Origin: Nocardia sputorum
GTDB lineage: Bacteria > Actinomycetota > Actinomycetes > Mycobacteriales > Mycobacteriaceae
Direction: 5' to 3'
Assembly (NCBI RefSeq): GCF_027924405.1
Contig: NZ_AP026978.1
Coordinates: 1,178,001-1,242,000 of the forward strand
DNA length: 64,000 nucleotides
Shown here: positions 26,039-40,902 of the stretch, piece by piece
Numbering within the stretch: the stretch's first letter is position 1
Layout: each line of letters opens with the position of its first letter
Program-made: the position numbers and the translations under genes
The notes under the pieces: model-generated
Databases searched by the model: none
Told to the model about the DNA's origin: nothing
What the model saw: the letters and a program-made list of their open reading frames with translations, nothing else

Positions 26039-26043
26039 GCCAT

Positions 26044-26085
26044 CGGCAGCGACAACCGAGCCACCGCGCTCGGTTGTCGCTGCCG
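26044..26085. terminator. Bidirectional terminator, VOC gene/response regulator
   Basis: A perfect 18-bp stem, CGGCAGCGACAACCGAGC at 26044-26061 and its complement at 26068-26085, with loop CACCGC, fills the 54-base gap between two convergent genes. Confidence 0.88.
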
Positions 26086-26092
26086 CGTGGGG

Positions 26093-26764
26093 TCAGTCGG
26101 GGCGTGCCGATTCGGGCGACGCCAGACCGTGCTGATGGGCGTAGACGACGGCGTGGATGCGATCGCGCACGCCGAGTTTGGCGAGGATGCGGGAGACGTG
26201 CGTCTTCACCGTCTCCTCGCCGACACCCAGCTGTGCGGCGATCTCGGCGTTGCTGCGCGCGTCGGCCAGCAGGAGCAGCACCTCCAGTTCGCGCGCGGTG
26301 AGCTGCTGGACTTCCGGCGGGATGCGCGGCGGCGCGAGCGTGCTCGCGAAGCGGGAGACCAGGCGGCGGGTCATCGACGGGTCGATCAGCGCGTCGCCGC
26401 GTGCCGCGATCCGGATCGCCGTGACGAGTTCTTCGGGCGGCAGGCTCTTCAGCAGGAACCCGCTCGCGCCCGCCTGCAAGGCGCGATACAGGTTGGCGTC
26501 GCTGTCGTAGGTGGTGAGCACCAGGACATGCGTGCCGCCCGCGCCGACGATCGCGGCGGTGGCGGCCAAGCCGTCGAGTTTCGGCATGCGGACGTCGAGG
26601 ATCGCGACATCCGGTCGCAGCCGGGCGGTCTCCGTGATCGCTGCGCGGCCGTCGCTCACCTCGGCGACGCAATCGAGGTCCGGCTGGCTGTCCACGACGG
26701 CGCGCAGGCCGGAGCGGAACACGCTGTGGTCGTCGGCGATCAGGACGCGGATGGGCGGGTTCAC
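26093..26764 (-). CDS. NarL/LuxR-family response regulator
   Basis: A 223-residue two-domain response regulator. The receiver domain has IADDHSVFRSGL, phospho-acceptor Asp57 in AILDVRMP and the conserved LTTYD and GASGFLLK. The DNA-binding domain (from about 150) has TARELEVLLLLADARSNAEI and the recognition helix GVGEETVKTHVSRILAKLGV typical of LuxR/NarL proteins. The GTG start overlaps the stop of the upstream kinase gene (GTGA), so the two form one transcription unit. Confidence 0.93.
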   Translation of the reverse strand: MNPPIRVLIADDHSVFRSGLRAVVDSQPDLDCVAEVSDGRAAITETARLRPDVAILDVRMPKLDGLAATAAIVGAGGTHVLVLTTYDSDANLYRALQAGASGFLLKSLPPEELVTAIRIAARGDALIDPSMTRRLVSRFASTLAPPRIPPEVQQLTARELEVLLLLADARSNAEIAAQLGVGEETVKTHVSRILAKLGVRDRIHAVVYAHQHGLASPESARPD

Positions 26765-27918
26765 GATCCTCCGATCGGCACGGACACCGTGGTGTGCCAG
26801 TGCGTGGCGTCACGGCCGTAGTCCACCGCGCCGTCGAACAGCTCGGCGCGGCGGCGGATTCCGTTCAGGCCGCGCTGGATCGAGGGGTCGGCGGAGACCG
26901 GCTCACGGGGGAGGGGATTGGTCGCGCTCAGCACCACTCGCTTCGGCAGGTACTCCACGTCCAGGCGGACGTGCGTGCCGTCGCCGTGCCGGAGCGCGTT
27001 GGTCAGCATCTCCTGCACGATGCGGTACAGGGTGAGATTCAGCGAGTCCGGCAGTGTGACGGCGTCACCGCGCACGGTCGTCTCGACCTGCAGCCCGGCC
27101 GCGCGGACATGTTCGATCAGCCCGTCGATGTCGGCTAGTCCCGGCTGGCGCTGCCCCTCGTCCTCCCGTCCGTGCAGCAGGTCGAGCTGGCGGCGCAGAT
27201 CCACCATCGCGGCCCGGCTGCTGGATTCCACCGCCGACAACGATCGGGCGGCGGCCGCGTTCGCCGTGCCGCCCAGGGCCAGCCGCGCCGCGCCCGCGTG
27301 GATGCCGATCGCACTGACGTGGTGGGAGATCACGTCGTGCAGGTCGCGGGCGATGGCCGCCCGTTCCTCGGTGACCGCGCGCTCCAACGCCGTCCGGTGC
27401 TCCTGCTGCCGCAGGCGGGCACGCTGCTCCAGATCGGCGATGTAGGCGCCCCGCGCCGCGGTGTAGCGGCCGACGAGCCACGGGACGCAGCCCGCGGAGA
27501 CGGTCGCGGCCAGCAGCAGCCGCCAGTCCTGCGCCGCGGCGGTGTCGGTGACCAGGTGCGCCCCGGCGACTCCGGCGCACAGCGACAACATGGTCAGCAC
27601 CGAACTCGGTCCGGCGAGCCACGCCCCCGCGCGGTATCCGGCCACCAGGAACCCCACGTCGGCGAACCGCACCGGGAATCCGTGCCGATACAGCAGCAGC
27701 GCGGCCAGCAGTCGCACGAGCACTTGCGCCACCGCGACCACGCCTGCGGTCCGGGGCGGGGCGGCCAAGGCGAGATCGGCGGCGACGATGGCCGTGACAG
27801 CGGCGACCGTCTGCCACGGCGCCACCGCGAAGACGCCGCACAGACCCAGCACCACCGCGTCGATGACGGCGGCCACCACGGCGACCACCACCGACTGGCG
27901 GGCCAGCGATCTGCTCAC
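26761..27918 (-). CDS. NarL-type sensor histidine kinase (HisKA_3)
   Basis: A 385-residue membrane kinase. Seen: a five- to six-helix N-terminal membrane region (residues 8-165, e.g. SVVVAVVAAVIDAVVLGLCG), then a HisKA_3 dimerisation motif with the phosphorylated His in AIARDLHDVISHHVSAIG, and an ATPase domain with RIVQEMLTNALRHG (N box) and QRGLNGIRRRAELFDG. The start is set at GTG 27918 (VSRSLARQS); the frame continues to 28143 but without conserved sequence and across the divergent promoter. The signal is unknown. It is divergent from the hydroxylase gene. Confidence 0.87.
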   Translation of the reverse strand: MSRSLARQSVVVAVVAAVIDAVVLGLCGVFAVAPWQTVAAVTAIVAADLALAAPPRTAGVVAVAQVLVRLLAALLLYRHGFPVRFADVGFLVAGYRAGAWLAGPSSVLTMLSLCAGVAGAHLVTDTAAAQDWRLLLAATVSAGCVPWLVGRYTAARGAYIADLEQRARLRQQEHRTALERAVTEERAAIARDLHDVISHHVSAIGIHAGAARLALGGTANAAAARSLSAVESSSRAAMVDLRRQLDLLHGREDEGQRQPGLADIDGLIEHVRAAGLQVETTVRGDAVTLPDSLNLTLYRIVQEMLTNALRHGDGTHVRLDVEYLPKRVVLSATNPLPREPVSADPSIQRGLNGIRRRAELFDGAVDYGRDATHWHTTVSVPIGGS

Positions 27919-28141
27919 GTCCAACAGTTCGTCACCGCCTCCGTCCGGTTCCGGTGCCGGGTCCTGGGGCGATCCTAGTGATCCGGCTGATCGGAGACGC
28001 CGCACGGACGACAACTCTGCCCGCGCGCGGGCGCGCTCGCGTCCCCCGTGCGGGGGACGCGAAGTCCCTCGCCGGCGCGATGTTTCCCCAGGCCCGGGCA
28101 CGTAGCGTCGAAGGCCGAGGCCAGAGGAAGAAGGAGAACTC

Positions 28142-29068
28142 ATGGGTCGTGTGGAGTTCGAGTTGCTGACCTACGCCATTCCGGCGTTCGCGGTGCTCAT
28201 GCTGGTGGAGTGGATCGCCTACCGGCGCGATCCCGACCGGTCCGGCAACGGCGGATCGGCCCGTGACACCGCTTCCAACCTGACGACGTTCACGGTGGGC
28301 AGGCTGGTCAAGCCGCTGATGCAGCATCTGGTGCCGTTCTCGGCCGTGGTCGTGGCCGCGGCGATCACGCCGCTGCACCTGTCGCCGCGATCCTGGTGGG
28401 TCTGGGTGCTCGGCTTGATCGTCACGGATCTGTGCTACTACTGGGCGCACCGTGCCGACCACCGGGTCCGGCTGATGTGGACCGCGCACAACGTGCACCA
28501 CTCCAGCCAGCACTTCAACCTCTCCACCGCGCTGCGCCTCTCCTGGCTGCATCCGATCCCGAATATCCTGCGCGGGCTGGCGTGGGTGCCCGCGGCGCTG
28601 CTGGGCTTCCCCACGTGGATGATCTTCTTGTTGCAGGGCATCGGGCTGCTCTACCAGTTCCCGATTCACACCCAGCGCGTCGAGACGCTTCCGCGTCCGA
28701 TCGAGTTCCTGTTCAACACGCCCTCGCACCACCGTGTCCACCACGGCTCGAACCAGCCCTACATCGACAAGAACTACGGCGGCATTTTCATCATCTGGGA
28801 TCGCCTGTTCGGCAGCTTCGCCGCCGAATCCGAACCGGTCCGCTACGGCCTCACCAAGAACATCGGCACCGACAACCCGCTGAAGGTCAACTATCACGAA
28901 TTGGCGGCGCTGATCCGCGACGTGCGCGGCGCGAGCACCTGGCGGGGGCGGCTCGGATACATCTTCGGCCCGCCCGGCTGGACCGAGCATGCCGTGCCGG
29001 TGCCCGAGCCGGTCGAAACTCCGGTGTCGGGGCGGGCCCGGGAACACGCCGGACAGCTCGCGTCGTGA
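28142..29068 (+). CDS. Fatty acid hydroxylase / sterol desaturase superfamily membrane protein
   Basis: A 308-residue diiron membrane oxygenase family member. Seen: the histidine clusters WAHRADH (near residue 101), AHNVHHSSQHF (near 117) and SHHRVHHG (near 198), with hydrophobic helices between them. The natural substrate may be a lipid or sterol side chain. The ATG follows AGAAGGAGAA. The protein has a Pro/Glu-rich tail. The neighbouring SnoaL-like and steroid 5-alpha-reductase-like genes suggest, but do not prove, a steroid-related role. Confidence 0.85.
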   Translation: MGRVEFELLTYAIPAFAVLMLVEWIAYRRDPDRSGNGGSARDTASNLTTFTVGRLVKPLMQHLVPFSAVVVAAAITPLHLSPRSWWVWVLGLIVTDLCYYWAHRADHRVRLMWTAHNVHHSSQHFNLSTALRLSWLHPIPNILRGLAWVPAALLGFPTWMIFLLQGIGLLYQFPIHTQRVETLPRPIEFLFNTPSHHRVHHGSNQPYIDKNYGGIFIIWDRLFGSFAAESEPVRYGLTKNIGTDNPLKVNYHELAALIRDVRGASTWRGRLGYIFGPPGWTEHAVPVPEPVETPVSGRAREHAGQLAS

Positions 29069-29111
29069 CCGGGTGCGGAGTTCGTTCACCGATCTGAGCT
29101 TGCCTTGAATC

Positions 29112-29145
29112 CGGTAGCCGGGTGCTTCGGTGCATCCGGCTACCG
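29112..29145. terminator. Terminator between hydroxylase and SnoaL-like genes
   Basis: A perfect 10-bp inverted repeat, CGGTAGCCGG at 29112-29121 and CCGGCTACCG at 29136-29145, between two convergent genes. The loop can form a smaller stem (TGC/GCA). Confidence 0.6.
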
Positions 29146-29254
29146 ACGCGCGTGCTCGGAGGCGCCGAACTGACGCGTGACGGTCCGGGCAGGCGACCAC
29201 GGGGGCGCGGGCATCGGCCGATGGCGACGACTCCGCGGCGGGCGATTCGCCGGG

Positions 29255-30061
29255 TCAGTCGCCGTCGAGATAGAACGTCACGCGCGCGATGCCTTCCCCG
29301 CTGCTCGCGAACTCCACGACGGCGACTCCGAATACCGCGCCGAGCCGGACGCTCGCCGTGACGGTGTGGCCGGCGGCGATCACCTTGCTCCAGCGCATGT
29401 TCCGCACCCGATTGGTGAATTCCTCCACCGACACCGGCGTGCCCGCGGGCAATTCGATCTCCGCCCGAGACCCGAGCAGCTCGCGCGCCCGGCTCAGATC
29501 GGTGCTCGCCGCGGCGGCGAAAAGCCTTGTGGTAGCTCGTTTTCCGCGGCGGCCCACGCCACCGAGCGCCCGCATCATGCCCAGCGCGCCACCGACGCCC
29601 TGGTTGACGATCAGCTGCGGCCCGAGCTTCAGCGCCGCGGCGATCCCGGGCAGCCCGGTGCGCAGCAGTTGCCAGATCATGTTCGCCAGTTCCCAGTGCG
29701 CGGCGAGAGAGGCGATCTTCCAGACGCCGTCCTGCTCGACCAGCCGGTAGCGCAGGTGCATCGGGACGAGGACGGTGGCGCCGGTCGACATCGTGGTGAC
29801 GACAGTCAGATCGCGCAGCACCGTCGGCGGATGGACCAGGTCGCGGTCTACCCGGAACGCGATGGTGTTCGGCCCGATGAAGGTGTCGTAGAACCGTTCG
29901 ATGGCGGCGCGGCCCACGTGCGGGCGGGACCCCACCGGGTCGTTGACCTCCGCCCCGGCGGCGAACAGACCCACCCACGCGGACTTGTCGTGTGCCGCGA
30001 CCGCGCGCGGTGACGCCTCGACGGCCGTCAGCAGCGCTGCGGCCGAGGGATCCAGCGGCAT
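29255..30061 (-). CDS. SnoaL/NTF2-like protein (ketosteroid-isomerase fold)
   Basis: A 268-residue protein whose first 130 residues have the NTF2/SnoaL pattern (AVAAHDKSAWVGLFAAGAEV, DPVGSRPHVGRAAIERFYDT, VWKIASLAAHWELANMIWQL). The C-terminal half (VSVEEFTNRVRNMRW...VTFYLDGD) may be a second such domain. Members include steroid delta-isomerases and hydratases; Asp and His positions are too divergent to assign catalysis. A KstR-like operator lies 44 bases upstream, shared with the divergent reductase gene. The start is ATG 30061. Confidence 0.72.
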   Translation of the reverse strand: MPLDPSAAALLTAVEASPRAVAAHDKSAWVGLFAAGAEVNDPVGSRPHVGRAAIERFYDTFIGPNTIAFRVDRDLVHPPTVLRDLTVVTTMSTGATVLVPMHLRYRLVEQDGVWKIASLAAHWELANMIWQLLRTGLPGIAAALKLGPQLIVNQGVGGALGMMRALGGVGRRGKRATTRLFAAAASTDLSRARELLGSRAEIELPAGTPVSVEEFTNRVRNMRWSKVIAAGHTVTASVRLGAVFGVAVVEFASSGEGIARVTFYLDGD

Positions 30062-30104
30062 GATGACAGAACCTCCGTAGACGCGAGCCGGACTGGACAC
30101 ATGG

Positions 30105-30118
30105 TAGAACAAGTTCTA
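30105..30118. promoter_or_regulatory. KstR-like operator
   Basis: TAGAACAAGTTCTA is a perfect 14-bp palindrome with a two-base centre. It fits the KstR consensus TnnAACnnGTTnnA, the TetR-family repressor of cholesterol catabolism in mycobacteria and rhodococci. It lies between the divergent SnoaL-like and steroid-reductase-like genes, 44 and 57 bases from their starts. Confidence 0.75.
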
Positions 30119-30175
30119 ATTTTGGCGTCGCGTTCCGGTGTCCCGCCGGTCGCGTCCGCAGGACAAGGGAACTCG

Positions 30176-30967
30176 ATGGACTGGTATACCGGCAACACCG
30201 TGTACGACACAGTACTGACGATCGGCTTCGCGTTCGCGGCGTTCGTCGTGGTCGGCGGCTTGTTCGCGCAGAGTCCCTACGGCCGCTTCGCCTCCGGCAA
30301 GGTCGGTTTCAATCTCAATCCCCGTCTGGGGTGGTGGTTGATGGAGATCCCGGCGACGGTGGTGTTCGCCCTCTGCTATCTCGCGGGCCCGAACCGCTTG
30401 GAACCCACGGCGCTCGCCCTCGCGGCCATCTGGGTGCTGCACTACGGCAACCGTGGCTGGTTCTTCCCGCTGGCCATCCGGCAGGTGCCCGGCAAGCGGG
30501 GCAGCTTCAATGTCTCGGTGCTCGCCGCCGGTATGTTCGTCACGGCGCTGCACGGCTATCTCAACGGCTCCCTGTTCAGTCACGACTACCTCGATCAGTA
30601 CGGGCCGGAATGGCTGACCGATCCGCGGTTCCTGCTCGGGCTCGTGGTCTATCTGAGTGGCTTCGCTCTGCTGGTGCGCTCCGAATCCATCGTGCGCAAC
30701 CTGCGGGACAAGGCGGATCCGGGTGCGGCCGAGTATCGGATCCCCTACGGCGCGGGATTCCGGTTCGTCAGCAGCCCGGCCTATCTGGGCGAGCTGATCG
30801 CGTGGGCGGGCTTCGCGCTGGCGACCTGGTCGTTGGCCGGCGTGGTCATCTTCCTGATCACGGCGGGCAATCTTGTGCCGCGTGCCCTCGCCACGCACAA
30901 GTGGTACCGGGAGAAGTTCGCCGACTATCCCGTGGACCGGAAGGCGTTGATTCCGTTCGTGGTCTGA
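30176..30967 (+). CDS. Steroid 5-alpha-reductase-like membrane protein
   Basis: A 263-residue multi-pass membrane protein. The C-terminal signature is GAGFRFVSSPAYLGELIAWAG...NLVPRALATHKWYREKFADYP, with the final KWY and the conserved Glu and His of the 3-oxo-5-alpha-steroid 4-dehydrogenase family, which reduces delta-4 bonds of 3-oxosteroids with NADPH. About six hydrophobic helices are visible. The ATG at 30176 follows GGACAAGGGA. The KstR-like palindrome 57 bases upstream supports a place in sterol metabolism (inference). Confidence 0.83.
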   Translation: MDWYTGNTVYDTVLTIGFAFAAFVVVGGLFAQSPYGRFASGKVGFNLNPRLGWWLMEIPATVVFALCYLAGPNRLEPTALALAAIWVLHYGNRGWFFPLAIRQVPGKRGSFNVSVLAAGMFVTALHGYLNGSLFSHDYLDQYGPEWLTDPRFLLGLVVYLSGFALLVRSESIVRNLRDKADPGAAEYRIPYGAGFRFVSSPAYLGELIAWAGFALATWSLAGVVIFLITAGNLVPRALATHKWYREKFADYPVDRKALIPFVV

Positions 30968-31084
30968 CCTCCTTGCCGAACCGGGGTCGTCTATCCATCG
31001 ATTGCCCAACGATCGAGTCATCGATTTGCATCGGAATAACTACTAGTAGCAGGCAAATATCTGGTGTTTGAAACTGTGTGCCAA

Positions 31085-31106
31085 TGACCGATGCATAACC
31101 GATGCA
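31085..31106 (-). promoter_or_regulatory. CarH-type operator site 1 (two 11-bp repeats)
   Basis: On the minus strand, TGCATCGGTTA (31106-31096) is followed directly by TGCATCGGTCA (31095-31085): two direct repeats at 11-bp spacing. The site ends 30 bases before the TIGR01777 gene and overlaps a possible -10 for a -35 TTGAAA at 31068. The same repeat recurs near 32859 and 34534. Confidence 0.65.
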
Positions 31107-31135
31107 CTCCGTCGGTTTCGGACTAGAGTCGGGTC

Positions 31136-32485
31136 ATGGGTATCGAGTACGCGAGCGTCATCGATCTACCCCGGTCCGAGGTGTTCGCCTGGCACGGTCG
31201 CCCCGGCGCGCTGGCCCGCCTGGCGCCGCCCTGGCAGCCGGTGTCGCCCCGCGCCGAATCGGACTCGCTCTGCGACGGGCAGGCGGTGCTCGGACTGCCC
31301 GGTGGCCTGCGCTGGGTGGCGCGGCACGATCCGGGCGAGTACGACCCGCCGCGCCGGTTCGTGGACGCGGTCACCGTCGACGGAATCGGCTCGCTGCCTG
31401 CCGGACTGCTGCCGTGGCGGCACACCCACGACTTCGAGGTCGTCGACGAGACGCGTACGCGGGTGGTGGACCGGGTGGACGCGCCGGTTCCCGCCACGGT
31501 GCTGCGCCCCATGTTCGCCTACCGGCACCGGCAGCTCGCCGACGATCTCGCGGCCCATGCGCGGGCGGCCGGAGCGGGCTTCGTGTCCAGGACCGTCGCG
31601 GTGACCGGAGCGTCCGGCCTGGTCGGTTCGGCGCTGACCGCGTTCCTGTCCACCGGCGGGCACCGTGTCGTGCGGCTGGTCCGGCACGCGCCGCGCGCCG
31701 CCGACGAAAGGCTCTGGGACACCGCCGACCCCGCGCCGGACCTGCTGGACGGTGTGGACGCCGTAGTGCATCTGGCGGGGGCCTCCATCGCAGGCCGGTT
31801 CACCGAGGGGCACAAGCGCGCGATCGCGGGCAGCCGGATCGGGCCGACCCGGAAACTCGCCGAGGTGGCGGCGCGCGCGGCGGTGCCGGTCTTCGTGTGC
31901 GCCTCCGCGATCGGCTACTACGGCGCCGATCGCGGCGACGAGGCGCTGACCGAGCGGTCGATGCGCGGTGCCGGTTTCCTCGCCGATGTGGTCGAGGAGT
32001 GGGAGGACGCGACGGCTCCCGCCGCCGAAGCCGGTGTGCGAGTGGTGCGCGTGCGTACGGGCATCGTGCAGTCCCCGCGCGGCGGCACGCTGCGGTTGTT
32101 GCGCCCGCTGTTCACCGCCGGGCTGGGCGGGCGCATCGGCAACGGCAGGCAATGGCTGTCGTGGATCGGGATCGATGACCTGATCGACATCTATCACCGG
32201 GCGCTCTGGGATGCGGGCCTGTCCGGCGCGGTCAATGCCGTTGCGCCGCAACCGGTCCGGAACGCGGAATACACCAAGATCCTCGCGAGCGTGCTGCACA
32301 GGCCCACCCTGTTCCCGGTGCCCGCATTCGGTCCCGCTCTGCTACTGGGCCGCGAAGGCAATCGGGAGGTGGCGTCCGCGAACCAACGCGTCGTTCCCGC
32401 GCGGCTGGCGGAGGCCGGGCATCAGTTCCGCACCCCCGCCCTGGAACCGGCGTTACGGCACCTGCTCGGCAGGCTCGCGGACTGA
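31136..32485 (+). CDS. TIGR01777 epimerase with N-terminal SRPBCC domain
   Basis: A 449-residue fusion. Residues 1-145 form an SRPBCC-like domain (SEVFAWHGRPGALARLAPPW, RWVARHDPGEYDPPRRFVD). From 150 comes an NAD-binding extended SDR of the TIGR01777/YfcH type: TGASGLVGSALTAFL, VVHLAGASIAGRF, CASAIGYYGADRGDE, GRIGNGRQWLSWIGIDDLID, and a closing domain RVVPARLAEAGHQFRTPAL. Such genes occur in light-inducible LitR/PplR regulons together with photolyase and lipocalin (recalled), and this one carries a CarH-type operator. The reaction is unknown. Confidence 0.87.
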   Translation: MGIEYASVIDLPRSEVFAWHGRPGALARLAPPWQPVSPRAESDSLCDGQAVLGLPGGLRWVARHDPGEYDPPRRFVDAVTVDGIGSLPAGLLPWRHTHDFEVVDETRTRVVDRVDAPVPATVLRPMFAYRHRQLADDLAAHARAAGAGFVSRTVAVTGASGLVGSALTAFLSTGGHRVVRLVRHAPRAADERLWDTADPAPDLLDGVDAVVHLAGASIAGRFTEGHKRAIAGSRIGPTRKLAEVAARAAVPVFVCASAIGYYGADRGDEALTERSMRGAGFLADVVEEWEDATAPAAEAGVRVVRVRTGIVQSPRGGTLRLLRPLFTAGLGGRIGNGRQWLSWIGIDDLIDIYHRALWDAGLSGAVNAVAPQPVRNAEYTKILASVLHRPTLFPVPAFGPALLLGREGNREVASANQRVVPARLAEAGHQFRTPALEPALRHLLGRLAD

Positions 32486-32858
32486 GCCCGGGGGCGTGTG
32501 CTTCGGTGGGCGAACGGGCGTGCCGAGTCCGGCGGCGTGTGCTCGCGTGGGGCCCGATCGATGCGGCCGGCGGTCCGCGCCCGCGACGCAGCGATCCGGC
32601 TGCACGCTGTGCCAGGATGCGGCCCGAGCGCGGAAGGATCTGTCAGGCACGGGCAGCCGCTGAATCGGCGTGCGCGAGATGCCGCCGCCCGCCGGATGAT
32701 CGAACCCGGCCGAGCCGGGGCGGCATGGTCGGTGCGGCCGGAGAATCGCAGGCGCGGTGTGTGCACAGCGCTCACCGGTGACCGGTGCGGAGCTTTGCCG
32801 CACGACGAGGTCCGCTACCGCTGGGCGTTGCTGATGCGCCGGTGCCGAGATCCCATGA

Positions 32859-32880
32859 TGCATCGATTTTGCATCGTACT
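32859..32880 (+). promoter_or_regulatory. CarH-type operator site 2 (two 11-bp repeats)
   Basis: TGCATCGATTT (32859-32869) followed directly by TGCATCGTACT (32870-32880). The spacing is exactly 11 bp and the core is the same as at sites 1 and 3. No protein gene starts just downstream, so it may control a small RNA or act as an auxiliary site for the carH-like gene 344 bases away. Confidence 0.6.
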
Positions 32881-32998
32881 GCCGACTGGGTGGAAAGGGT
32901 GGCCAACCGAGGTGGTCGGCCCCCAGCCCACCGCGCTGAACGGACGTGACGGCACAGTGTGAAGTCGCGCCACGCCGCCTTCGCTGTGCCCGGAAATG

Positions 32999-33033
32999 AA
33001 CCCCCGAGGGCGGCCATCGCCGCCTCGGGGTTT
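32999..33033 (+). terminator. Terminator-like hairpin with T tail
   Basis: AACCCCCGAGGGCGGC (32999-33014) pairs with GCCGCCTCGGGGTTT (33019-33033), with one bulged G and one extra C, loop CATC. Reading on the + strand it ends in TTT. It could end the epimerase transcript or a short RNA from operator site 2. Confidence 0.55.
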
Positions 33034-33223
33034 GTCGAGTTCCATGACGGCCAGTTCGCTCAGCGCGTACTCGCCCGGCCCGAAGGCGTCCGGCCGACCG
33101 GCCTGGTAGACCCCAAGGTCGTGGCGGCTGCGGGTCGCCGATCCGAGCCGGGACGGTGTGCCGACGCGGGATCGCGGCGTGTCCGTTGATAGGGGCGGTT
33201 CGGCGGGATTCGCCCGGGGGTGC

Positions 33224-34069
33224 TCAGGCGAGCCGGTCGGCGGCGTCGACCAGGCTCTCGACCCGTTCCACGTCCTCGGGGAGGAAGACCACCTCCCACC
33301 CCGGGCCGCCGACCAGCACGCGGGCGCCCGCGCCGAGGCAGGCGCGCACCGCGGAGGTCAACGCCGTGGACTCCTGCTGCGACCACAGCAGTACGGCGGC
33401 GGGGCGGTCGAACCGGGCGAGGGTGTCGGCGAGCGCGGCGGCGGGCACGTCGGCGCCCAGCATCCGCGCCCCGGCGCCGCGTTCGGCGAGTGCCGCGCGC
33501 AGCACCTCCAGCGGCAGCGAGTGCGTCTCCCCGCTGGTGCAGGCGAGCACCACCGGCGCCATGCCGTCCGGGACCGGCGGCGGGTTCGTCCGGTGCAGCA
33601 CCGAGACGACGCACCAGGAAAGCAAGTGCTCCACATCGATGCATCCCTCGCCGCCGAGCTGCCGATCGACGATGTCGGCGAACGCGGGGCGGCACAGCAG
33701 ATTCCAGGTGTCCACCACGCCGAACGCGCGGACGTGCGCTTCGATCTGGTTCGACACCGCGGTGGTGTCCAGCGCGAAGGCCGCGGCCAGCAGCGCCTCC
33801 CGGCGGCCGAGTGTGGGCGCGGGCCCGCGCACCGCGGCCGCCGCGCCCGCCGGGCTCGCGCCCGCGCGGATCAGCGCCAGCATCCGTTCGAGCATGGCGA
33901 TGTCGGCCTCGGTGTACAGGCGGTGCCGACCCGGGCGGTGCTGCGGCGGGCCGATGTCGTAGCGGCGGTTCCAGCTGCGCAGCGTGGCGGTCGGGATACC
34001 GAGACGCTCGGCGACCGCGCGCACCGTGTATCCCGCCGCGTCGGACACGGGGACGGGACCGGTGGGCAT
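33224..34069 (-). CDS. CarH/LitR-type MerR regulator with B12-binding domain
   Basis: A 281-residue regulator. The N-terminal MerR domain is seen in YTVRAVAERLGIPTATLRSW (residues 14-33) and GRHRLYTEADIAMLERM. Next come a helical cap and a Rossmann cobalamin-binding domain with SGETHSLPLEVL, whose His183 aligns with the lower axial His177 of Thermus CarH, and a closing GGPGWEVVFLPEDVE. Glu147-His148 align with the CarH adenosyl-capping Glu141-His142. Gln137-Leu138 replace Trp131-His132, so light chemistry could differ. CarH proteins repress in the dark with adenosylcobalamin and release DNA in light. The gene sits between three matching operator sites and near a photolyase. Confidence 0.83.
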   Translation of the reverse strand: MPTGPVPVSDAAGYTVRAVAERLGIPTATLRSWNRRYDIGPPQHRPGRHRLYTEADIAMLERMLALIRAGASPAGAAAAVRGPAPTLGRREALLAAAFALDTTAVSNQIEAHVRAFGVVDTWNLLCRPAFADIVDRQLGGEGCIDVEHLLSWCVVSVLHRTNPPPVPDGMAPVVLACTSGETHSLPLEVLRAALAERGAGARMLGADVPAAALADTLARFDRPAAVLLWSQQESTALTSAVRACLGAGARVLVGGPGWEVVFLPEDVERVESLVDAADRLA

Positions 34070-34607
34070 CGCCCCATTCTGCCCGCCGCCGCCGACGGGA
34101 TCCGCTCCACCCGGCTGATCGGTGGGTCCGCGCGGCGGCATCAGGTCACCGTCGATTTCGTGCCGGGGCGTTCATGCGGGCCACCCCGGCGGTGCTTGCC
34201 CGGACGCGCGCAGGTCGGCCGCCGCCGTTCGGGAGGGTGAGCAGCGGCGGCGGGCCGGTGCGACGGCCTGGCCCATCCGCACGGCCCCACTGCCACGGGC
34301 AGAGGGGCGATCCGCCGGCTGGGCGGCCTCTCGCGTCGGCCGACCGCCAGGGCTGCTCGCGTGTGTGGGCTCATCGGTGCGAGTTCTGGAAAGCGTGATG
34401 CTGCGGCAGCGCCGGGGTGGGTGTCGTGCGGCCGGGCGCGCAGCTGGTTCCCGGGGCGTGTGCGAACCGGTTTCCGGCAGGCGTGGGGCCCTCGATGCTC
34501 GGCGCTGTCCTCCGCGTCATTGCTCCTCCGGGATGCGAATGCGTTGCATCAATTGTGCATCGTTCTATGCTAGAGTGGTCGGCATCGCCGATTTCCGAGG
34601 AGTTAGC
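34070..34607. other. 538-bp divergent control region, carH-like gene/lipocalin
   Basis: No gene is supported in this gap. Its right end carries the lipocalin promoter and operator site 3. The carH-like gene would need its own promoter or a roughly 475-base leader from the operator region; none is obvious. Confidence 0.5.
34534..34571 (+). promoter_or_regulatory. CarH-type operator site 3 overlapping lipocalin-photolyase promoter
   Basis: Three adjacent 11-bp units begin at 34534 (TGCGAATGCGT), 34545 (TGCATCAATTG) and 34556 (TGCATCGTTCT). The second covers the -35 TTGCAT (34544-34549) and the third fills the 16-bp spacer before the -10 TATGCT (34566-34571). This is the layout expected for repression by a CarH tetramer, which contacts tandem 11-bp repeats. 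Confidence 0.75.
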
Positions 34608-35231
34608 GTGCACCGTCGCAACTTGCTGCGTACGTCGACCCGCCTGCTCGCCGGGCTGGTGTCGGCGCTGTCCGCGACCGCTCTGGCGGCGGGTGGCGCC
34701 TCCGCGGCTCCGAACCCGCTCGGCGGCCCCGCGCCGGTGCCGCGGCTGGAACTGGAGCGGTACACGGGGACGTGGCGTCAGCTCGCGGCCGTCCCGCAGT
34801 ACTTCAACCTCGCCTGCGCGCGTGATACCCAGGCGAATTACGCACTCGACGCGGCGGGCGACATCGCGGTGCGCAACACCTGCACCACGTGGACCGGCAC
34901 GCAGAACGAGATCAACGGCACCGCGACGGTCAACGACCGGGAGACCGGCGCCCAGCTGCACGTCAGCTTCCCCGGCGTGCCGACCCAGGATCGCCTGGAC
35001 GGGCCGACCAACTACATCGTCACGGCGCTCGGCCCGGACTATTCGTGGGCGGTGGTCACCGACCCGAGCCGGATATCCGGATTCGTCCTGGCGCGCGCCG
35101 CGTCATTGGACGCGAATGCCTGGCAGCAGGTGCGCGCCGCGATCGTCGCGGCGGGCCAGAACCCGTGCCTGTACCTGACCTCGCCGACGACGGGCGGTGA
35201 GTCGCGCATCGTCCCGCTGTGCGCGGGGTGA
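34608..35231 (+). CDS. Secreted lipocalin (Blc-like)
   Basis: A 207-residue protein with a signal sequence (residues 1-35, LAGLVSALSATALAAGGASA) and a lipocalin domain: the GxW-type opening LELERYTGTWRQLAAVPQYF (residues 47-66), NYALDAAGDIAVRNTC, and the late motif PTNYIVTALGPDYSWAVV. Two Cys pairs may form disulfides. Lipocalins of this type bind lipids or pigments at the envelope. The GTG start follows CGAGGAG. It is the first gene behind the CarH-type promoter, with photolyase downstream on the same strand. Confidence 0.87.
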   Translation: MHRRNLLRTSTRLLAGLVSALSATALAAGGASAAPNPLGGPAPVPRLELERYTGTWRQLAAVPQYFNLACARDTQANYALDAAGDIAVRNTCTTWTGTQNEINGTATVNDRETGAQLHVSFPGVPTQDRLDGPTNYIVTALGPDYSWAVVTDPSRISGFVLARAASLDANAWQQVRAAIVAAGQNPCLYLTSPTTGGESRIVPLCAG

Positions 35232-35355
35232 TCCGGCATGTTCGGCGCTCGCGAGGGTCGCGTCGGCGGCGGTGGGGCTGAGCCGCCCGACGCCGCGCCG
35301 GCGCGAACCCTCACGGGCGCCGAGCACGACCGCGCTCGTTCGACAAGGAGGCTCG

Positions 35356-35394
35356 ATGACTGTCACTGCCACACAGCCTGAGCGTGCGCGATGA
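35356..35394 (+). CDS. 12-codon leader ORF coupled to photolyase
   Basis: An ATG after a near-perfect ribosome site (AAGGAGG) encodes MTVTATQPERAR and stops in ATGA, where the ATG is the photolyase start. It may serve translational coupling. Its first codons resemble those of photolyase (MTVT), suggesting a local duplication of the start region. Confidence 0.45.
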   Translation: MTVTATQPERAR

Positions 35395-36716
35395 CCGTCA
35401 CGATCGCTCTGTTCACCCGGGACCTGCGGGTGCGAGACAACCCGGTGCTGACCGCCGCCCACCGGGAAGGCGCCGCGGTGTTGCCGTTGTTCGTGCTCGA
35501 CGATGCCATCCTCTCCGGGCGCTTCGCCGCGCCGAACCGCGCCCGGTTCCTCGTCGCCGCCCTCGCCGAACTCGACGTCGAACTGCGCGCCCTCGGCGGC
35601 GGCCTGGTGCTGCGCCGCGGCGACGTGGCCGCGGAGGTCGACCGCGTGGCCGCACAGGTGCACGCCGAGAGCGTGCACGTGGCGGCCGACGTCAGTGGCT
35701 ACAGCCGGCGGCGCGAACGGGCGCTGCGGGAGCGTCTCGCGCGGCGCGGCTGCCTGCTGCACACCCATTCCGCCACCGTCACCGTCGCCGATCCGGCGAC
35801 GCTGCTGCCCGCAACCGGGCGTGACCACTTCGCGGTCTTCAGCCCGTATTTCCGGCGTTGGTCCGACGCGCCGCAGCGCAAGCCGCTGGGCAAACCGCGC
35901 AGCCTCATGGTGCCGCGGGTGCCGAGCCTGCCTCTGCCGGACGCGGGCGAGCTGTGCCAGGGACCGACGTCGCCGCAGCTCGCCGTGGGCGGTGAGACGA
36001 CCGGGCGAGAAATCGTGCGCGATCGGCTGTCCGGGCCGGTCGAGCAGTACGCGCGCGACAACGACGACCTCGCCGCCGACGACACCTCGCGGCTGTCGCC
36101 GTATCTGCATTTCGGTTGCGTGTCGCCGGTGGAGTTGGTGCACCGGCTCGACCTGTCCACCGCGGGCGGGCACGCGTTCGCCCGCCAGCTGGCCTGGCGC
36201 GACTTCCACCACCAGTTGCTGGCCGCCCGCCCGTCGGCGGCCTGGTCGGACTATCGGCCCCGCTCGGTTCGCCCGCGTGACGACGAGCGGGCCGTCGACG
36301 CCTGGCGCGAAGGCCGCACGGGGCATCCGATCGTGGACGCCGGTATGCGGCAGTTGCGCGCGGAGGGGTGGATGCACAACCGCGCGCGGCTGATCACGGC
36401 CAGCTTCCTCACCAAGTCGCTGCGCGTCGACTGGCGGGTGGGGGCGGAGCACTTCTTGCGCTGGCTGGTGGACGGCGACCTGGCGAACAACCAGCTCAAC
36501 TGGCAGTGGGTGGCCGGCACGGGGACCGACACCAGGCCGAATCGGGTGCTCAACCCGCTGCGCCAAGCGGAGCGTTACGACCCGGACGGCGAGTACGTCC
36601 GGCGCTGGGTTCCCGAGCTGGCGCACCTGCCCGGCGGACGTATCCACCGGCCGTGGCGCGAACACGTCGATCCGGCGGACTATCCGGCGCCGATCATCGA
36701 CTTCGTCGGAATGTAG
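35391..36716 (+). CDS. phr: Class I CPD photolyase
   Basis: A 441-residue flavoprotein that uses blue light to split cyclobutane pyrimidine dimers. Seen: the N-terminal antenna-binding domain (VTIALFTRDLRVRDNPVLTA), the linker, and the FAD domain with DDTSRLSPYLHFGCVSPVEL near 228, WRDFHHQLL, HPIVDAGMRQLRAEGWMHNR, RMxxASFLTK-like ITASFLTKSLRVDWRVGAEH and DGDLANNQLNWQWVAGTGTD. The Trp electron-transfer positions are present in these motifs. The start overlaps the 12-codon leader. Its control by the CarH-type operator upstream of lipocalin fits known LitR regulons. Confidence 0.95.
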   Translation: MTVTIALFTRDLRVRDNPVLTAAHREGAAVLPLFVLDDAILSGRFAAPNRARFLVAALAELDVELRALGGGLVLRRGDVAAEVDRVAAQVHAESVHVAADVSGYSRRRERALRERLARRGCLLHTHSATVTVADPATLLPATGRDHFAVFSPYFRRWSDAPQRKPLGKPRSLMVPRVPSLPLPDAGELCQGPTSPQLAVGGETTGREIVRDRLSGPVEQYARDNDDLAADDTSRLSPYLHFGCVSPVELVHRLDLSTAGGHAFARQLAWRDFHHQLLAARPSAAWSDYRPRSVRPRDDERAVDAWREGRTGHPIVDAGMRQLRAEGWMHNRARLITASFLTKSLRVDWRVGAEHFLRWLVDGDLANNQLNWQWVAGTGTDTRPNRVLNPLRQAERYDPDGEYVRRWVPELAHLPGGRIHRPWREHVDPADYPAPIIDFVGM

Positions 36717-36720
36717 CGGT

Positions 36721-37314
36721 TCACCCGGGTCGACGGTCCGTGACGAGCATTGCGTCGGCGACCGACTCGAAGGCCTGCACCACGTTCTCCAGTTCGTCGC
36801 CGAGGTCACGCATCTCGGCGACCGCCATGAGGTCGTCGGTGTCGAAGTACCATCGCGCGAACAGGCGGCGGAAAGCGTCGTCGGCGTCGTCCGCCAGCCG
36901 CCGGATCTCCGCTCGATATCTCTGCGCCTCGATGGAATTCAGCGGGGCAGTCAGTGACCGGGCCGTGTGCTGCCCGCATTCCTCGACGATGCCGATCACC
37001 TCGGTGAGTTCGTCCACGAGCGTCGTCGCGCGGTGCCCGCTCGCGCGCTCGGCCGCCGTGCGCAGGTGGACGACGACGCTGTGCAACGCCCGGCCGAGCG
37101 CGCACCGGCCAGCCGCATCCGGCACGCCGAACAGTTCGCACACGAGTGCGTCGCTGCGATCGGCGACCACCACGAGCCGCGCGTGCGCCGCCGCGAGGTC
37201 TGCGGGGTCGCGACACAGCATGCCGAGTATCGCCGCGGCTTGCCCGACCGTGCCCGCCACGGACCGGAAACAGTCGTGCGAGTCCTCCCGGATCAACGGT
37301 TGCGATGACGCCAC
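36721..37314 (-). CDS. DUF47/PhoU-like helical protein
   Basis: A 197-residue all-helical protein. The pattern GQAAAILGMLCRDPADLAAA, HARLVVVADRSDALVCELF, TTLVDELTEVIGIVEECGQH, RRLADDADDAFRRLFARWYF and LGDELENVVQAFESVADAML resembles DUF47 proteins, PhoU relatives that accompany Pit phosphate transporters. No Pit gene is adjacent. The GTG at 37314 is chosen; the frame runs on upstream without conserved sequence. It converges on photolyase with a four-base gap. Confidence 0.62.
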   Translation of the reverse strand: MASSQPLIREDSHDCFRSVAGTVGQAAAILGMLCRDPADLAAAHARLVVVADRSDALVCELFGVPDAAGRCALGRALHSVVVHLRTAAERASGHRATTLVDELTEVIGIVEECGQHTARSLTAPLNSIEAQRYRAEIRRLADDADDAFRRLFARWYFDTDDLMAVAEMRDLGDELENVVQAFESVADAMLVTDRRPG

Positions 37315-37519
37315 AGATACTCCTGACGGTGGATCGAGATGTCTGCGTGGTGTGGGGATTCCACGGCCGCGACCGGCGCCGCGACACAGATGATTCGAAG
37401 AGCGAGACACCGCGGATGAAATCTCGTGGATCCACCCGGGCGTGAGCTTCCGAATCCCGTTCGGGCGCGCTTGAATTGATATGTCGAGGATCTGCCACGC
37501 CCGAGGAAAGGGGCCTGTC

Positions 37520-37600
37520 ATGGGCACCGTCGAAATCGCGATCACCATCGGCCGCATCGTGGACACGCTGCAGAAGGCGCTGATCCTGCTCATTCTCTGA
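37520..37600 (+). CDS. Small 26-residue hydrophobic peptide ORF
   Basis: The ATG at 37520 follows GAGGAAAGG by 8 bases. The peptide MGTVEIAITIGRIVDTLQKA continues LILLIL and is a single amphipathic or membrane-inserting helix. It is too small for ordinary gene calling. The ribosome site and isolation from other genes favour a real small gene; no family is recognised. Confidence 0.45.
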   Translation: MGTVEIAITIGRIVDTLQKALILLIL

Positions 37601-38101
37601 TCGACTCGGGAAGCCGGGCGCCCTGACGAAGGTTGCCCGAAAATCACCGAATACCTCGAATTATTCCTCGGTCGATCAGTCGCCGGACACCGACCGGTGG
37701 AATTCCCCTGCGTCGGAGACGATGTCGGCCAAGCCCGGGCGCCGCGTCTTCCAGCCGAGCCTGCTGCCCGCCTTGCCGCTCGCGGCCGGATCCCCCCGCC
37801 TGCGCGAGCCGTAGCGCACGGGAAGTCGTGTCCGGTGATTTCCCGCGCGGTATCGAGCACCTGCCGGTTGGAGTAGCACGTGCCGATACGGGTACCGATT
37901 CAGTTGCCAGGAGTTTCCCAGCAGGGTATCGGGCTGTCTCGAGATCCCGCGTCGAGGATCGTTTCCGCGGTCGAAGTGCGGCCGAGGGCCCGACGGGCCG
38001 GATGAAGGCAGGTATGCAGGTGTCTTCCCGGGCACACCGCTGTCAGGTCGATTACCTCGCAGGTAATCGACCTGAGCGGCGTTCTGGGCGAGGCTCGGGG
38101 C
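37601..38101. other. 501-bp intergenic region
   Basis: Apart from the perfect palindrome at 38044-38076, I see no gene or clear signal here. Frames across it are Arg/Pro-rich and unlike any family. Confidence 0.45.
38044..38076. promoter_or_regulatory. Perfect 15-bp-arm palindrome upstream of small membrane protein
   Basis: TCAGGTCGATTACCT at 38044-38058 and its exact complement at 38062-38076, loop CGC. It ends 25 bases before the ATG at 38102. It could be a repressor operator or a hairpin; there is no T-run to suggest a terminator. The AT-rich core (GATTACC) is unusual in this GC-rich DNA. Confidence 0.5.
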
Positions 38102-38497
38102 ATGGCGACGAACAACATGCGGCAAACCCGCTCCCCCTTGGCTGGTGCGCTGCGCGGCCTCGCGGTCGGACGGATCGCGCTGGGGTCGGCCGCTGTCCTG
38201 GCCCCGCGAACGTTGAGTAAAAGGTTGGGTGTGCGCCCCACACCCGAACTCGAGTACATGACCCGGATCTTCGGCGCGCGGGCGATCGCGCTGGGCCTGG
38301 GATATCTGACGGCGCCGGCCGAGGAGCTGCCGCGCTGGCAGCGCCTGGCGTTGCTGGTGGACATCCTGGACACCACACACGGCGGGGTGCGGATCCTGCG
38401 CAGCGACGTCCCCCGGCCGACCGCCGTCGCGCTGGTCGCTCTGACCGGCGGTTACATGCTCGTCGGCGCGACCCGGCTGGCCACGGACCTGTGGTGA
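38102..38497 (+). CDS. Small membrane protein of unknown function
   Basis: A 131-residue protein with hydrophobic stretches at about residues 17-34, 65-75 and 108-125 and the conserved-looking LEYMTRIFGARAIALGLGYL and VALVALTGGYMLVGATRLA. It resembles small actinobacterial DUF4267-like membrane proteins, but the match is only by general appearance. It is preceded by a strong palindrome and followed 22 bases later by the PIG-L gene, probably co-transcribed. Confidence 0.6.
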   Translation: MATNNMRQTRSPLAGALRGLAVGRIALGSAAVLAPRTLSKRLGVRPTPELEYMTRIFGARAIALGLGYLTAPAEELPRWQRLALLVDILDTTHGGVRILRSDVPRPTAVALVALTGGYMLVGATRLATDLW

Positions 38498-38519
38498 AAG
38501 TCTTTGGCACACTGGTGCG

Positions 38520-39320
38520 ATGGCGACCGTTGTGGCATTCCACGCGCACCCCGACGACGAGACGCTGCTGACCGGCGGGACGCTGGCGAGGCTGTCCGCC
38601 GCCGGGCACCGGACCGTGATCGTGGTGGCCACCGACGGCCACATGGCCGATCTGGACGGCCGCGAACCGCTGCGGCTCAGCGAGCTGGAGGCGAGCGCGG
38701 CAGCGCTCGGCGTGCACCGAGTGGTGCACCTCGGCTACGCCGACAGCGGACACGGTGCGGTGCTGTACGCCGACCCGCCGGACCGGATGCGGTTCGCCCG
38801 CGCGGACCCGGAGGAGGCGGCTCGGCGGTTGGCCGCGATCCTGCGCGAGGAGCGCGCCGAGATTCTGCTCAGCTACGACCGCAACGGCGGGTACGGGCAC
38901 CGCGACCACGTCCGCGTGCACGAAGTGGGCAAGCGCGCGGCCGAACTCGCAGGAGTGTCGCGCGTCCTGGACGCGACCCTGCCGCGTGAGGGTTATACGC
39001 GCCTGGTTCATCTGTCGCGGCGGCTGCGGGCCCCCGTGAACTACGACCCGTCGGTCCTCGACTCGCTGTACAGCCCACGCTCGGCGATCACGCACCGCGT
39101 CGACGTCGGCGCTCACGCCGCGCAACGGAAGACCGCACTGGCGGCGCACCGCTCGATCCTCGAGGGCTCCAGCCGCTTCGCCACCATCGCGAAGGTGCTC
39201 CTGCGCATGCCCACCCCACTTCTCGCCCGGGTGATGCGCTGGGAATGGTATGCCGAAGAAGGCGTCATTTCCGCACCGGCGGTCCCGCTCGACGACATCT
39301 TCCGGCCCGCGTCCCGTTGA
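38520..39320 (+). CDS. PIG-L/LmbE-family zinc deacetylase
   Basis: A 266-residue zinc-dependent N-acetylglucosaminyl deacetylase-fold protein. Seen: the metal motif HAHPDDE at residues 8-14, TDGHMADLDGRE, a second motif NGGYGHRDHVRVHE near 123 containing the third metal His, and THRVDVGAHAAQRKTALAAH later. Family members deacetylate GlcNAc-linked lipids, mycothiol intermediates or antibiotics; the substrate here cannot be named. The ATG at 38520 has a weak ribosome site. Confidence 0.87.
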   Translation: MATVVAFHAHPDDETLLTGGTLARLSAAGHRTVIVVATDGHMADLDGREPLRLSELEASAAALGVHRVVHLGYADSGHGAVLYADPPDRMRFARADPEEAARRLAAILREERAEILLSYDRNGGYGHRDHVRVHEVGKRAAELAGVSRVLDATLPREGYTRLVHLSRRLRAPVNYDPSVLDSLYSPRSAITHRVDVGAHAAQRKTALAAHRSILEGSSRFATIAKVLLRMPTPLLARVMRWEWYAEEGVISAPAVPLDDIFRPASR

Positions 39321-39360
39321 GCGGTTCCGCCGCTGGGTCGGCGATGGCCGGATACACCGG

Positions 39361-40902
39361 CTACCCGGATGGTGTTCGGTCGACCCGGGGCTGCGGATCG
39401 GCGGGCTCGCGCGGCAACACCACCGTGAAGGTCGCCCCACTCCCGGGTTCGCTGTCCACCGATACCCGTCCGCCGTGGGCGGTGACCAGCGCTTGGACGA
39501 TGGACAGGCCGAGGCCGGTACCGCCGCTGGCCCGGGTGCGGGAGGCGTCCGCGCGATAGAAGCGTTCGAACACCCGGGCGGCGGCCTCGGGTGACAGGCC
39601 GGGTCCCGCGTCGATGACATCGATGCGGACGCGATCGGGCGCGGGTGTGAGTCGCACGGTGATCGCCGCTTCGCGTGGGGTGTGGGTGAGGGCGTTGCCG
39701 AGCAGGTTGCCCAGCACCTGGCGCAGGCGGGCCTCGTCGCCGACGACGTCCATGGTGCCCGAGCCGTCGCCCACCACCAGCGTGATCGGCCGGTCCGGCG
39801 CGTCGGGTGCGGGTTTCTGGCGGGCGGCGATGGCCCGGGCGTTGTGTACGGCGTCACCGGCGAGCGCGAGCAGGTCGACGGGTCTGCGCTCCAGCGGCCG
39901 CTTCTCGTCCAGTCGCGCGAGCAGCAGCAGATCTTCGACCAGCAGGCCCATCCGCTCGGCCTCGGCCTCGATCCGGCCCACCACCATTCCCGCGTCGGTG
40001 CTGGCGCCCTGCCGGTACAGCTCGGCGAACCCGCGGATAGTGGTCAGCGGCGTGCGCAGCTCATGGCTGGCATCGGCGACGAAGCGGCGCATCCGCGCCT
40101 CCGAACGGCGGGCCGCCTCCTCCGAGGCCTCGGTCGCCGCGACGCCGTGCTGGATCTGCGCGAGCATCTCGTTCAGCGACCGCGCCAGATGGTCGACCTC
40201 GGTGTCGACGCCGCGCACCGGGACCCGCCGGTGCAGATCGCCGCCCGCGATCGCCGCGGCGGTCTGCTCCACCTCGCGCAGCGGCCGCAGGCTGCGCCGG
40301 ATCACCAGGTAGCCGATGGCGCCCAGGGCCAGCAGAGCCGCGGCTCCGGTGCCGATCTCGAAGAAGATCAGCCGCGAGACCGTCTCCTGGTTGTCGGTCA
40401 GCGGCAGGCCGACCGTGGTGGAACCGTACTGGTTGGTGGTGGTCAAAACGCGCCAGCGCACCGGGGAACCGTCCGAGGAATCCACCGTGCGCGGGGTATG
40501 CGCGTTCGCGCCGTCGAGATCCGGGGTCCCCGCCGCGCTGCCGGCGCCGGGTAGGTCTTGATACACCTGCCCGTCGGCTCCGGTGCGCAGTTCGAAGAAC
40601 CGGCGCGGCTGCTCGCCCGGCGACCTCGGCGGTACGGGCGCGGCCGGCAAATCGGCCGGAATCCATTGCGTGCGGCCGTCACTGGTCGTCACCTGCCGCA
40701 TCGGCCGCGGCTCCGCCCAGGACCGGGCCGCGTCGTAGAGCTGCTCGTCGGTGCGTTGGGTCAGCGACCGGCTCAGCGCCGAGGTCACCGCCGCGCCCGA
40801 CGCGAACAGCGCCGCTGTCGTCAGCAGCAGCAGCACGATCACCAGCCCTACCCGCAGCGGGACCGCCGAGATCCGCCGCGCGAGTTTCTCCCGTACGCTC
40901 AC
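39361..40902 (-). CDS. HAMP-domain sensor histidine kinase
   Basis: A 513-residue OmpR-class sensor kinase. Seen: transmembrane helix 1 (residues 17-40), an extracellular sensor part of about 140 residues, helix 2 near 185-205, HAMP (RRSLRPLREVEQTAAAIAGG), the phosphorylated His in ADASHELRTPLTTIRGFAEL, N box VLGNLLGNALTHT, and G boxes DAGPGLS and GGTGLGLSIVQALV. It resembles mycobacterial TrcS-type kinases. It is co-transcribed with the response regulator upstream, with overlapping ends. Confidence 0.93.
   Translation of the reverse strand: MSVREKLARRISAVPLRVGLVIVLLLLTTAALFASGAAVTSALSRSLTQRTDEQLYDAARSWAEPRPMRQVTTSDGRTQWIPADLPAAPVPPRSPGEQPRRFFELRTGADGQVYQDLPGAGSAAGTPDLDGANAHTPRTVDSSDGSPVRWRVLTTTNQYGSTTVGLPLTDNQETVSRLIFFEIGTGAAALLALGAIGYLVIRRSLRPLREVEQTAAAIAGGDLHRRVPVRGVDTEVDHLARSLNEMLAQIQHGVAATEASEEAARRSEARMRRFVADASHELRTPLTTIRGFAELYRQGASTDAGMVVGRIEAEAERMGLLVEDLLLLARLDEKRPLERRPVDLLALAGDAVHNARAIAARQKPAPDAPDRPITLVVGDGSGTMDVVGDEARLRQVLGNLLGNALTHTPREAAITVRLTPAPDRVRIDVIDAGPGLSPEAAARVFERFYRADASRTRASGGTGLGLSIVQALVTAHGGRVSVDSEPGSGATFTVVLPREPADPQPRVDRTPSG

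Follow-up and report, generated by a model that had tools for sequence, protein, structure and literature searches.

A paired 11-bp direct-repeat operator beside CarH-like regulators and photoprotection genes in Nocardia sputorum and its relatives

What regulates a photolyase gene cluster that harbours a gene for a CarH-like protein of the MerR-B12 type, and through which DNA sites? This question is raised by a stretch of 64,000 nucleotides from Nocardia sputorum (contig NZ_AP026978.1, positions 1,178,001 to 1,242,000), hereafter the window, in which an initial annotation pointed to three sites sharing the core TGCATC at an exact 11-bp spacing. By computation, these sites represent an operator that is conserved in relatives and linked both to a clade of CarH-like proteins and to photoprotection genes. 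Judging from the sequences, it is probable that CarH1, encoded in the window, and its paralogue CarH2, encoded elsewhere in the genome, repress photoprotection genes through this new paired-repeat operator until these are induced, most likely by light.

The sites are present as exact copies of TGCATC-N5-TGCATC, at 31090-31106 on the minus strand and at 32859-32875 and 34545-34561 on the plus strand. A first-order model predicts 0.0086 exact copies per 64 kb, and the probability of at least three within 3,487 bp is about 2e-11. When pairs of TGCATC in the window were counted over gaps of 0 to 30 bases, gap 5 occurred three times, gap 18 once, and no other gap at all. If two mismatches are allowed, the window holds five sites, no more than expected by chance (mean 4.95), so that the argument rests on the exact copies. 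Gene calls and family matches agree with the initial annotation in placing a CarH-like gene among the sites, precisely between the second (32859) and the third (34545), and in flanking it with TIGR01777, lipocalin and photolyase genes. The features concerned, in window positions, are the following.

31090..31106, minus strand: operator C, TGCATCGGTTATGCATC on the minus strand
31136..32485, plus strand: TIGR01777-family oxidoreductase, 449 amino acids (NCBIfam TIGR01777 284.5 bits, cut-off 207)
32859..32875, plus strand: operator B, TGCATCGATTTTGCATC, an orphan in an empty region
33224..34069, minus strand: CarH1, with a MerR helix-turn-helix, a four-helix bundle and a B12-type Rossmann domain
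34534..34539, plus strand: TGCGAA, a weak third half-site (4 of 6 letters) that precedes operator A by 11 bp
34545..34561, plus strand: operator A, TGCATCAATTGTGCATC, followed by the -10-like TAGAGT (34571-34576) of the lipocalin-photolyase unit
34608..35231, plus strand: lipocalin, 207 amino acids (Pfam Lipocalin_2 117 bits)
35391..36716, plus strand: deoxyribodipyrimidine photolyase, 441 amino acids (Pfam FAD_binding_7 232 bits, DNA_photolyase 133 bits)

The open frame of CarH1 extends to 34141, and the start at 34069 was inferred from the length of 281 amino acids common among the listed homologues. Upstream of the TIGR01777 gene, the half-site GATGCA of operator C (31101-31106) stands 17 bp before the -10-like sequence TAGAGT (31124-31129), which lies 6 nucleotides from the ATG at 31136; by eye, the transcript is probably leaderless. 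The N terminus of the lipocalin, likewise by eye, resembles an export signal.

A search of species genomes provided 51 loci for comparison, namely 45 from Nocardia, five from Mycobacterium/Mycobacteriaceae and one from Streptomyces. Exact sites were found in 34 of these 51 CarH loci (42 sites in 621 kb). Counted by gap from 0 to 39, the TGCATC pairs of the 51 loci numbered 42 at gap 5, 11 at gap 24, six at gap 10, one each at gaps 9, 20 and 38, and none at the others; the recurrent pairs at gap 24 and gap 10, seen in loci L019-L069, are perhaps coding sequence. Sites with at most one mismatch were observed within 400 bp upstream of the lipocalin gene and on its strand in 35 of the 51 loci, within 120 bp upstream of the TIGR01777 gene in the opposite orientation in 13, and near crtE in four.

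The unit itself was delineated from 36 lipocalin promoters, 35 from relatives and one from the window. These had been chosen at one mismatch or fewer (24 exact, 12 with one), so the conservation of the 12 core letters is partly a product of the choice; the T's of the spacer and the motif TAnnnT were not part of the selection. In 36 of 36 promoters a T occupies position three of the first unit's spacer as well as the matching base after the second half-site. Downstream of the operator, TAnnnT occurs in 32 of the 36, in comparison with 10 of 36 in a control stretch, and in nearly all of those 32 it starts 25 to 27 bases after the first base of the operator. Around TGCGAA (34534-34539) conservation amounts to 0.0-0.3 bit across the 36 promoters. 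The initial annotation had counted three repeats at the lipocalin promoter, a count that has to be lowered to two, as no third half-site is conserved upstream; a third repeat downstream was also rejected, the conserved letters there being out of register with the repeat. Together, the invariant T's and the missing third half-site define the unit as TGCATCrnTtn, present twice in tandem. A single locus of another genus (L110, around 3492-3519) does carry three perfect TGCATC units repeating every 11 bp, about 500 bp from a gene for a histidine-kinase-like ATPase and with a DUF1295 gene within the same 7 kb.

Across the whole genome (one contig of 7,431,165 bases), the scan that the initial annotation had suggested returned four exact copies of TGCATC-N5-TGCATC, and the reversed control pattern returned one. 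The fourth copy, at 3140264-3140280, stands beside the second CarH-like gene and crtE-crtI. On one side of it are a gene for a DUF6764 protein and then crtE, which encodes a polyprenyl synthase, and crtI, for a phytoene desaturase (TIGR02734 483 bits); on the other side lies CarH2, a MerR-B12 protein 54% identical to CarH1. Taken with the triplet of the window, all four exact sites are thus near one of two CarH-like paralogues. The genome also contains 12 sites with one mismatch, among which 3139709-3139725 (L017:9709-9725), CGCATCGATAGTGCATC, the site whose surroundings were examined, combines a fitting spacer with a known neighbouring gene: the crtE open frame starts about 60 bp downstream of it, TGCGAA follows 11 bp further on, and the site is likely a fifth operator. 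In the 15 kb adjoining the crt-cluster stretch, a second photolyase/cryptochrome-like gene (L018:12029-13324) has no exact site of its own.

Does the operator travel with the regulator beyond this genome? Among 201 evenly drawn genomes of the family, 28 hold a close CarH-like gene (E below 1e-60); G001, G011 and G032, with distant CarH-like matches (E 1e-31 to 1e-36), were counted among the 173 others. An exact site is present in 27 of the 28 genomes and in 47 of the 173 (Fisher p 1e-12, a value to be read with the caveat that genomes of the same genus are not independent), although several of the 27 have only far sites with unlike spacers, which probably arose by chance. The spacer discriminates further, since the pattern purine-N-T is carried by 20 of 24 sites near CarH as against 7 of 57 in genomes lacking a close CarH-like gene. 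The initial annotation had expected tandem 11-bp repeats to serve as operators of CarH-type proteins, and this agrees with a spacing equal to that of CarH and with a site whose presence is tied to a CarH-like gene. Of 15 genomes from the genus of the window, 10 contain exact copies with the spacer TGCGT or CGCGT, unlike that of the operator.

A held-out test was built on the 47 exact sites that lie far from CarH in CarH genomes. The 19 with a purine-N-T spacer were all examined and make up 18 loci, as two of them overlap in L110; two non-consensus sites (L126 and L127) were added, and 20 of the 57 sites in other genomes, picked by hand, served as controls. The query list consisted of 13 proteins, taken from the window, L017 and L037 with the exception of CrtB, which came from the test locus L114 and was added after the loci had been viewed. 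At 8 of the 18 held-out loci, a photolyase, crtE, crtB, crtI or TIGR01777 gene follows the site at a distance of no more than about 215 bp, in comparison with none of the 20 controls (Fisher p 0.0009); without CrtB the figures are 7 of 18 and 0 of 20 (Fisher p 0.0025). Neither non-consensus site, L126 (spacer TATTG) or L127 (TGCGT), is at a query gene, and the latter overlaps a called open frame. In L115 and L116, two loci of one genome of another genus, open frames with a GGDEF domain start 163 and 210 bp from the motif sites, and through them a link of the regulon to cyclic di-GMP is possible.

The orphan operator B finds its counterpart in five relatives (L032, L037, L038, L039 and L040). 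There, a site downstream of CarH1 with at most one mismatch lies 13 to 111 bp ahead of the point at which a flavin amine oxidoreductase gene is estimated to start, the order being an oxidoreductase dependent on flavin adenine dinucleotide (FAD), then DUF1365 and CFA-synthase-like (CMAS) genes. This operon is absent from the window. A search for the FAD-oxidoreductase elsewhere in the genome gave no match at E 1e-10, a result that shows little, as the search had no positive control. Since the operon occupies the same place in the five relatives and is missing here, site 32859 is best read as an orphan left by gene loss; from its sequence context, operator B is most likely a leftover of that operon. 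In close relatives that also lack the operon, the best remaining site carries zero to six mismatches. A working promoter at operator B was considered and rejected, as no -10-like sequence follows it, and TAnnnT is found downstream of only 3 of 27 sites of this type. A promoter and terminator scan of 30900-34800 reported one promoter-like match, on the minus strand and away from the operators, and no terminators, and no Rfam family reached its gathering score in 26000-40000. A hairpin of AACCCCCGAGG and CCTCGGGGTTT (32999-33033), in the interval that separates the orphan site from the 3' end of carH1, is perhaps a two-way terminator.

A mechanism may be proposed on these grounds. CarH1 and CarH2 would bind pairs of 11-bp units (TGCATCrnTtn), arranged head to tail and overlapping the -35 and spacer region of the target promoters, and would keep the lipocalin-photolyase, TIGR01777 and crtE-crtI genes off; the repressor would then be released on induction, most likely by light or photo-oxidative stress.

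How closely does CarH1 resemble proteins known to act in this way? Its predicted fold and its best sequence match both lead to CarH of Thermus thermophilus (LitR class I, PDB 5C8D/5C8E/5C8F; Foldseek E 2.8e-14). The class I order of domains is shared, with a MerR helix-turn-helix, a four-helix bundle and a Rossmann B12 domain. The structure alignment comprised 36 of the 120 listed homologues and nine others, and the tree omitted the truncated L103. The lower-axial histidine (His) of ExHxxG/P is kept in CarH1 (GETHSLP) and is His in every aligned homologue, and EH (VEH 170-172) and GxxxP (GADVP 229-233), also features of the Thermus protein, are mostly kept in homologues. The light-responsive domain signature has been described as GxxW, EH, GxxH and GxxxP (PMC11796333), of which CarH1 holds every element except GxxW.

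On the DNA side, Thermus CarH also recognizes head-to-tail 11-bp repeats at a promoter, a likeness that here is one of sequence, with three repeats in Thermus and two conserved ones in Nocardia. The letters of the operator, which the initial annotation did not recognize, do differ from the published CarH consensus nAnnTnnACAn (PMC8156234). When naAnyGATGCA, the reverse complement of TGCATCrnTtn, is set against it, A, C and A coincide in one register, the T and A of the Thermus consensus being replaced by G and G; other registers are possible. The recognition helix reads RSWN(R/Q)RY in the CarH1 clade and RQWERRY in Thermus CarH. With operator letters and recognition helix both changed, it is suggested that protein and DNA changed together.

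Other families offer partial likenesses. The regulon resembles that of Pseudomonas PplR/PmlR (LitR class II), which includes a photolyase, a short-chain dehydrogenase and an FAD-dependent oxidoreductase; its fatty-acid-modifying, methyltransferase-type enzyme UfaM (PMC9758184) is paralleled by the CFA-synthase-like protein in relatives of the window. Class II proteins, however, lack the Rossmann half of the B12 domain, which CarH1 has. The initial annotation had held that photolyase, lipocalin and TIGR01777 genes recur in known LitR regulons, and this stands for the photolyase (Pseudomonas, PMC9758184), whereas a search for the word found no lipocalin in two LitR/MerR papers, PMC9758184 and PMC5241685, and a similar one no TIGR01777 in PMC5241685. 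Photocobilins (SasPcob, PDB 8J2W/8J2X) carry a globin-type biliverdin domain, for which 305 residues leave no room, and SasPcob retains the tryptophan (Trp) that CarH1 does not (PMC10979010). In the same bacterial order, light-induced crt genes of Corynebacterium and Mycobacterium kansasii are described as repressed by the MarR-type CrtR (PMC6739363, PMC9861118), from a protein family unrelated to CarH1; PMC6739363 reports that the light-responsive strains studied there have no LitR homologue in their genomes.

Several observations weigh against control of these genes by CarH1 and CarH2. An exact site lies within 6 kb of the CarH-like gene in only 19 of the 28 genomes (24 sites), the four CarH genomes of genus g29 show no exact site near the gene, and the 28 are not independent samples where they share a genus, as 15 of them do with the window. 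No query gene is nearby at 10 of the 18 held-out sites; at eight of these loci the neighbours encode a DUF2867-SDR, a luciferase-like, a GAF-ANTAR and a GGDEF protein, a histidine-kinase-like ATPase, a pyridoxal-phosphate-dependent enzyme, an acyltransferase and a small, weakly matched membrane protein, genes that may be there by chance or be further regulon members. Operator B has no remaining target gene. CarH1 scores 72.3 bits with the NCBIfam CarH equivalog, whose cut-off is 400, and none of 14 control genomes passes it either. Finally, the Trp of GxxW/Wx9EH is absent, Gln161 standing at its place in CarH1.

Not all readings of the sites involve CarH. That they are a chance or compositional repeat devoid of function is extremely improbable: about one exact match is expected per 7.4-Mb genome, and one is present in 47 of the 173 genomes that lack a close CarH-like gene, but clustering, gap specificity, the exact-copy statistics, the link to the regulator, the held-out test and the skewed purine-N-T spacers led us to reject it. 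It is also improbable, if less so, that another, unlinked regulator mainly binds the operator and that CarH merely hitch-hikes in a conserved cluster. Much of the conservation evidence does stem from one such cluster; yet within a single genome each of two paralogous CarH genes, unlinked to one another, has the site in its neighbourhood, the site also stands at promoters of crt and photolyase genes remote from CarH, and its presence tracks that of CarH.

If CarH1 and CarH2 are the repressors, the lost Trp bears on how they would sense light. This residue is called crucial in adenosylcobalamin (AdoCbl) photoreceptors (PMC8156234, PMC9304148), and corresponds to Trp131 in Thermus CarH. Of the 120 listed homologues, 119 have Gln at this position and one has Leu; three further-off homologues of other genera (L101, L104 and L105) have His or Arg, which weakens the notion of Gln as a conserved functional substitute. 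In L106 and L107, two relatives that do possess the Trp, 3.7 kb contain no exact site, a weak contrast given that 12 of 28 Trp-less loci also have none. The invariant His argues for retained cobalamin binding, and the lost Trp speaks against classical AdoCbl photosensing; AdoCbl as the chromophore is, on the residues, possible, as the lower-axial His is kept, but the AdoCbl-capping Trp is gone. A classical photoreceptor, which would oligomerise on the repeats in the dark and fall apart in light with other residues replacing Trp, is conceivable without being probable. It would suit the invariant His, the mostly kept EH and GxxxP and the adenosyltransferase gene present in the genome, and the unconserved counterpart of Thermus His132 would not oppose it, since CtMerR is light-responsive despite lacking TtCarH His132 (PMC11796333); the missing Trp would. 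About equally likely is a repressor akin to CarA of Myxococcus xanthus, a B12-independent CarH paralogue that keeps the B12 motif and EH and has lost the Trp (PMC9304148), the same combination as in CarH1. Such a protein would bind DNA without cobalamin and be released by a light-made partner or ligand, and variation at the Trp position between genera is what a lost function predicts. Against it, the His ligand is invariant across the aligned genera, beyond what drift predicts. CarA, which is under the control of the antirepressor CarS, differs from CarH1 in keeping an RxWERRY helix (PMC9304148). The most novel possibility, at somewhat below an even chance, is a clade in Nocardia, Mycobacterium and neighbours that gave up the Trp and kept the cobalt ligand, the binding of 11-bp repeats and the photoprotection regulon, with co-evolved operator and helix, and that senses light or photo-oxidative damage through another cobalamin, chromophore or partner. 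If true, this would be a third solution beside CarH and CarA.

A search of one open-access library for four of the site sequences returned no paper, and no account of this regulon appeared among the papers listed on LitR, B12 and photolyase in Nocardia, on Nocardia carotenoids, on mycobacterial photochromogenicity or on lipocalin, photolyase and MerR proteins; the papers on light-induced carotenoids in this order credit the MarR protein CrtR (PMC6739363, PMC9861118). The operator could yield a second one for CarH-type optogenetic switches, and, as operator and helix are both unlike the Thermus pair, they may aid in deciphering how direct-repeat MerR proteins recognize their DNA. The CarH1 clade represents a natural test of the role of the CarH Trp. 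With a CarH-like pair, a defined operator and a list of targets, light control in Nocardia and in some mycobacteria becomes directly testable.

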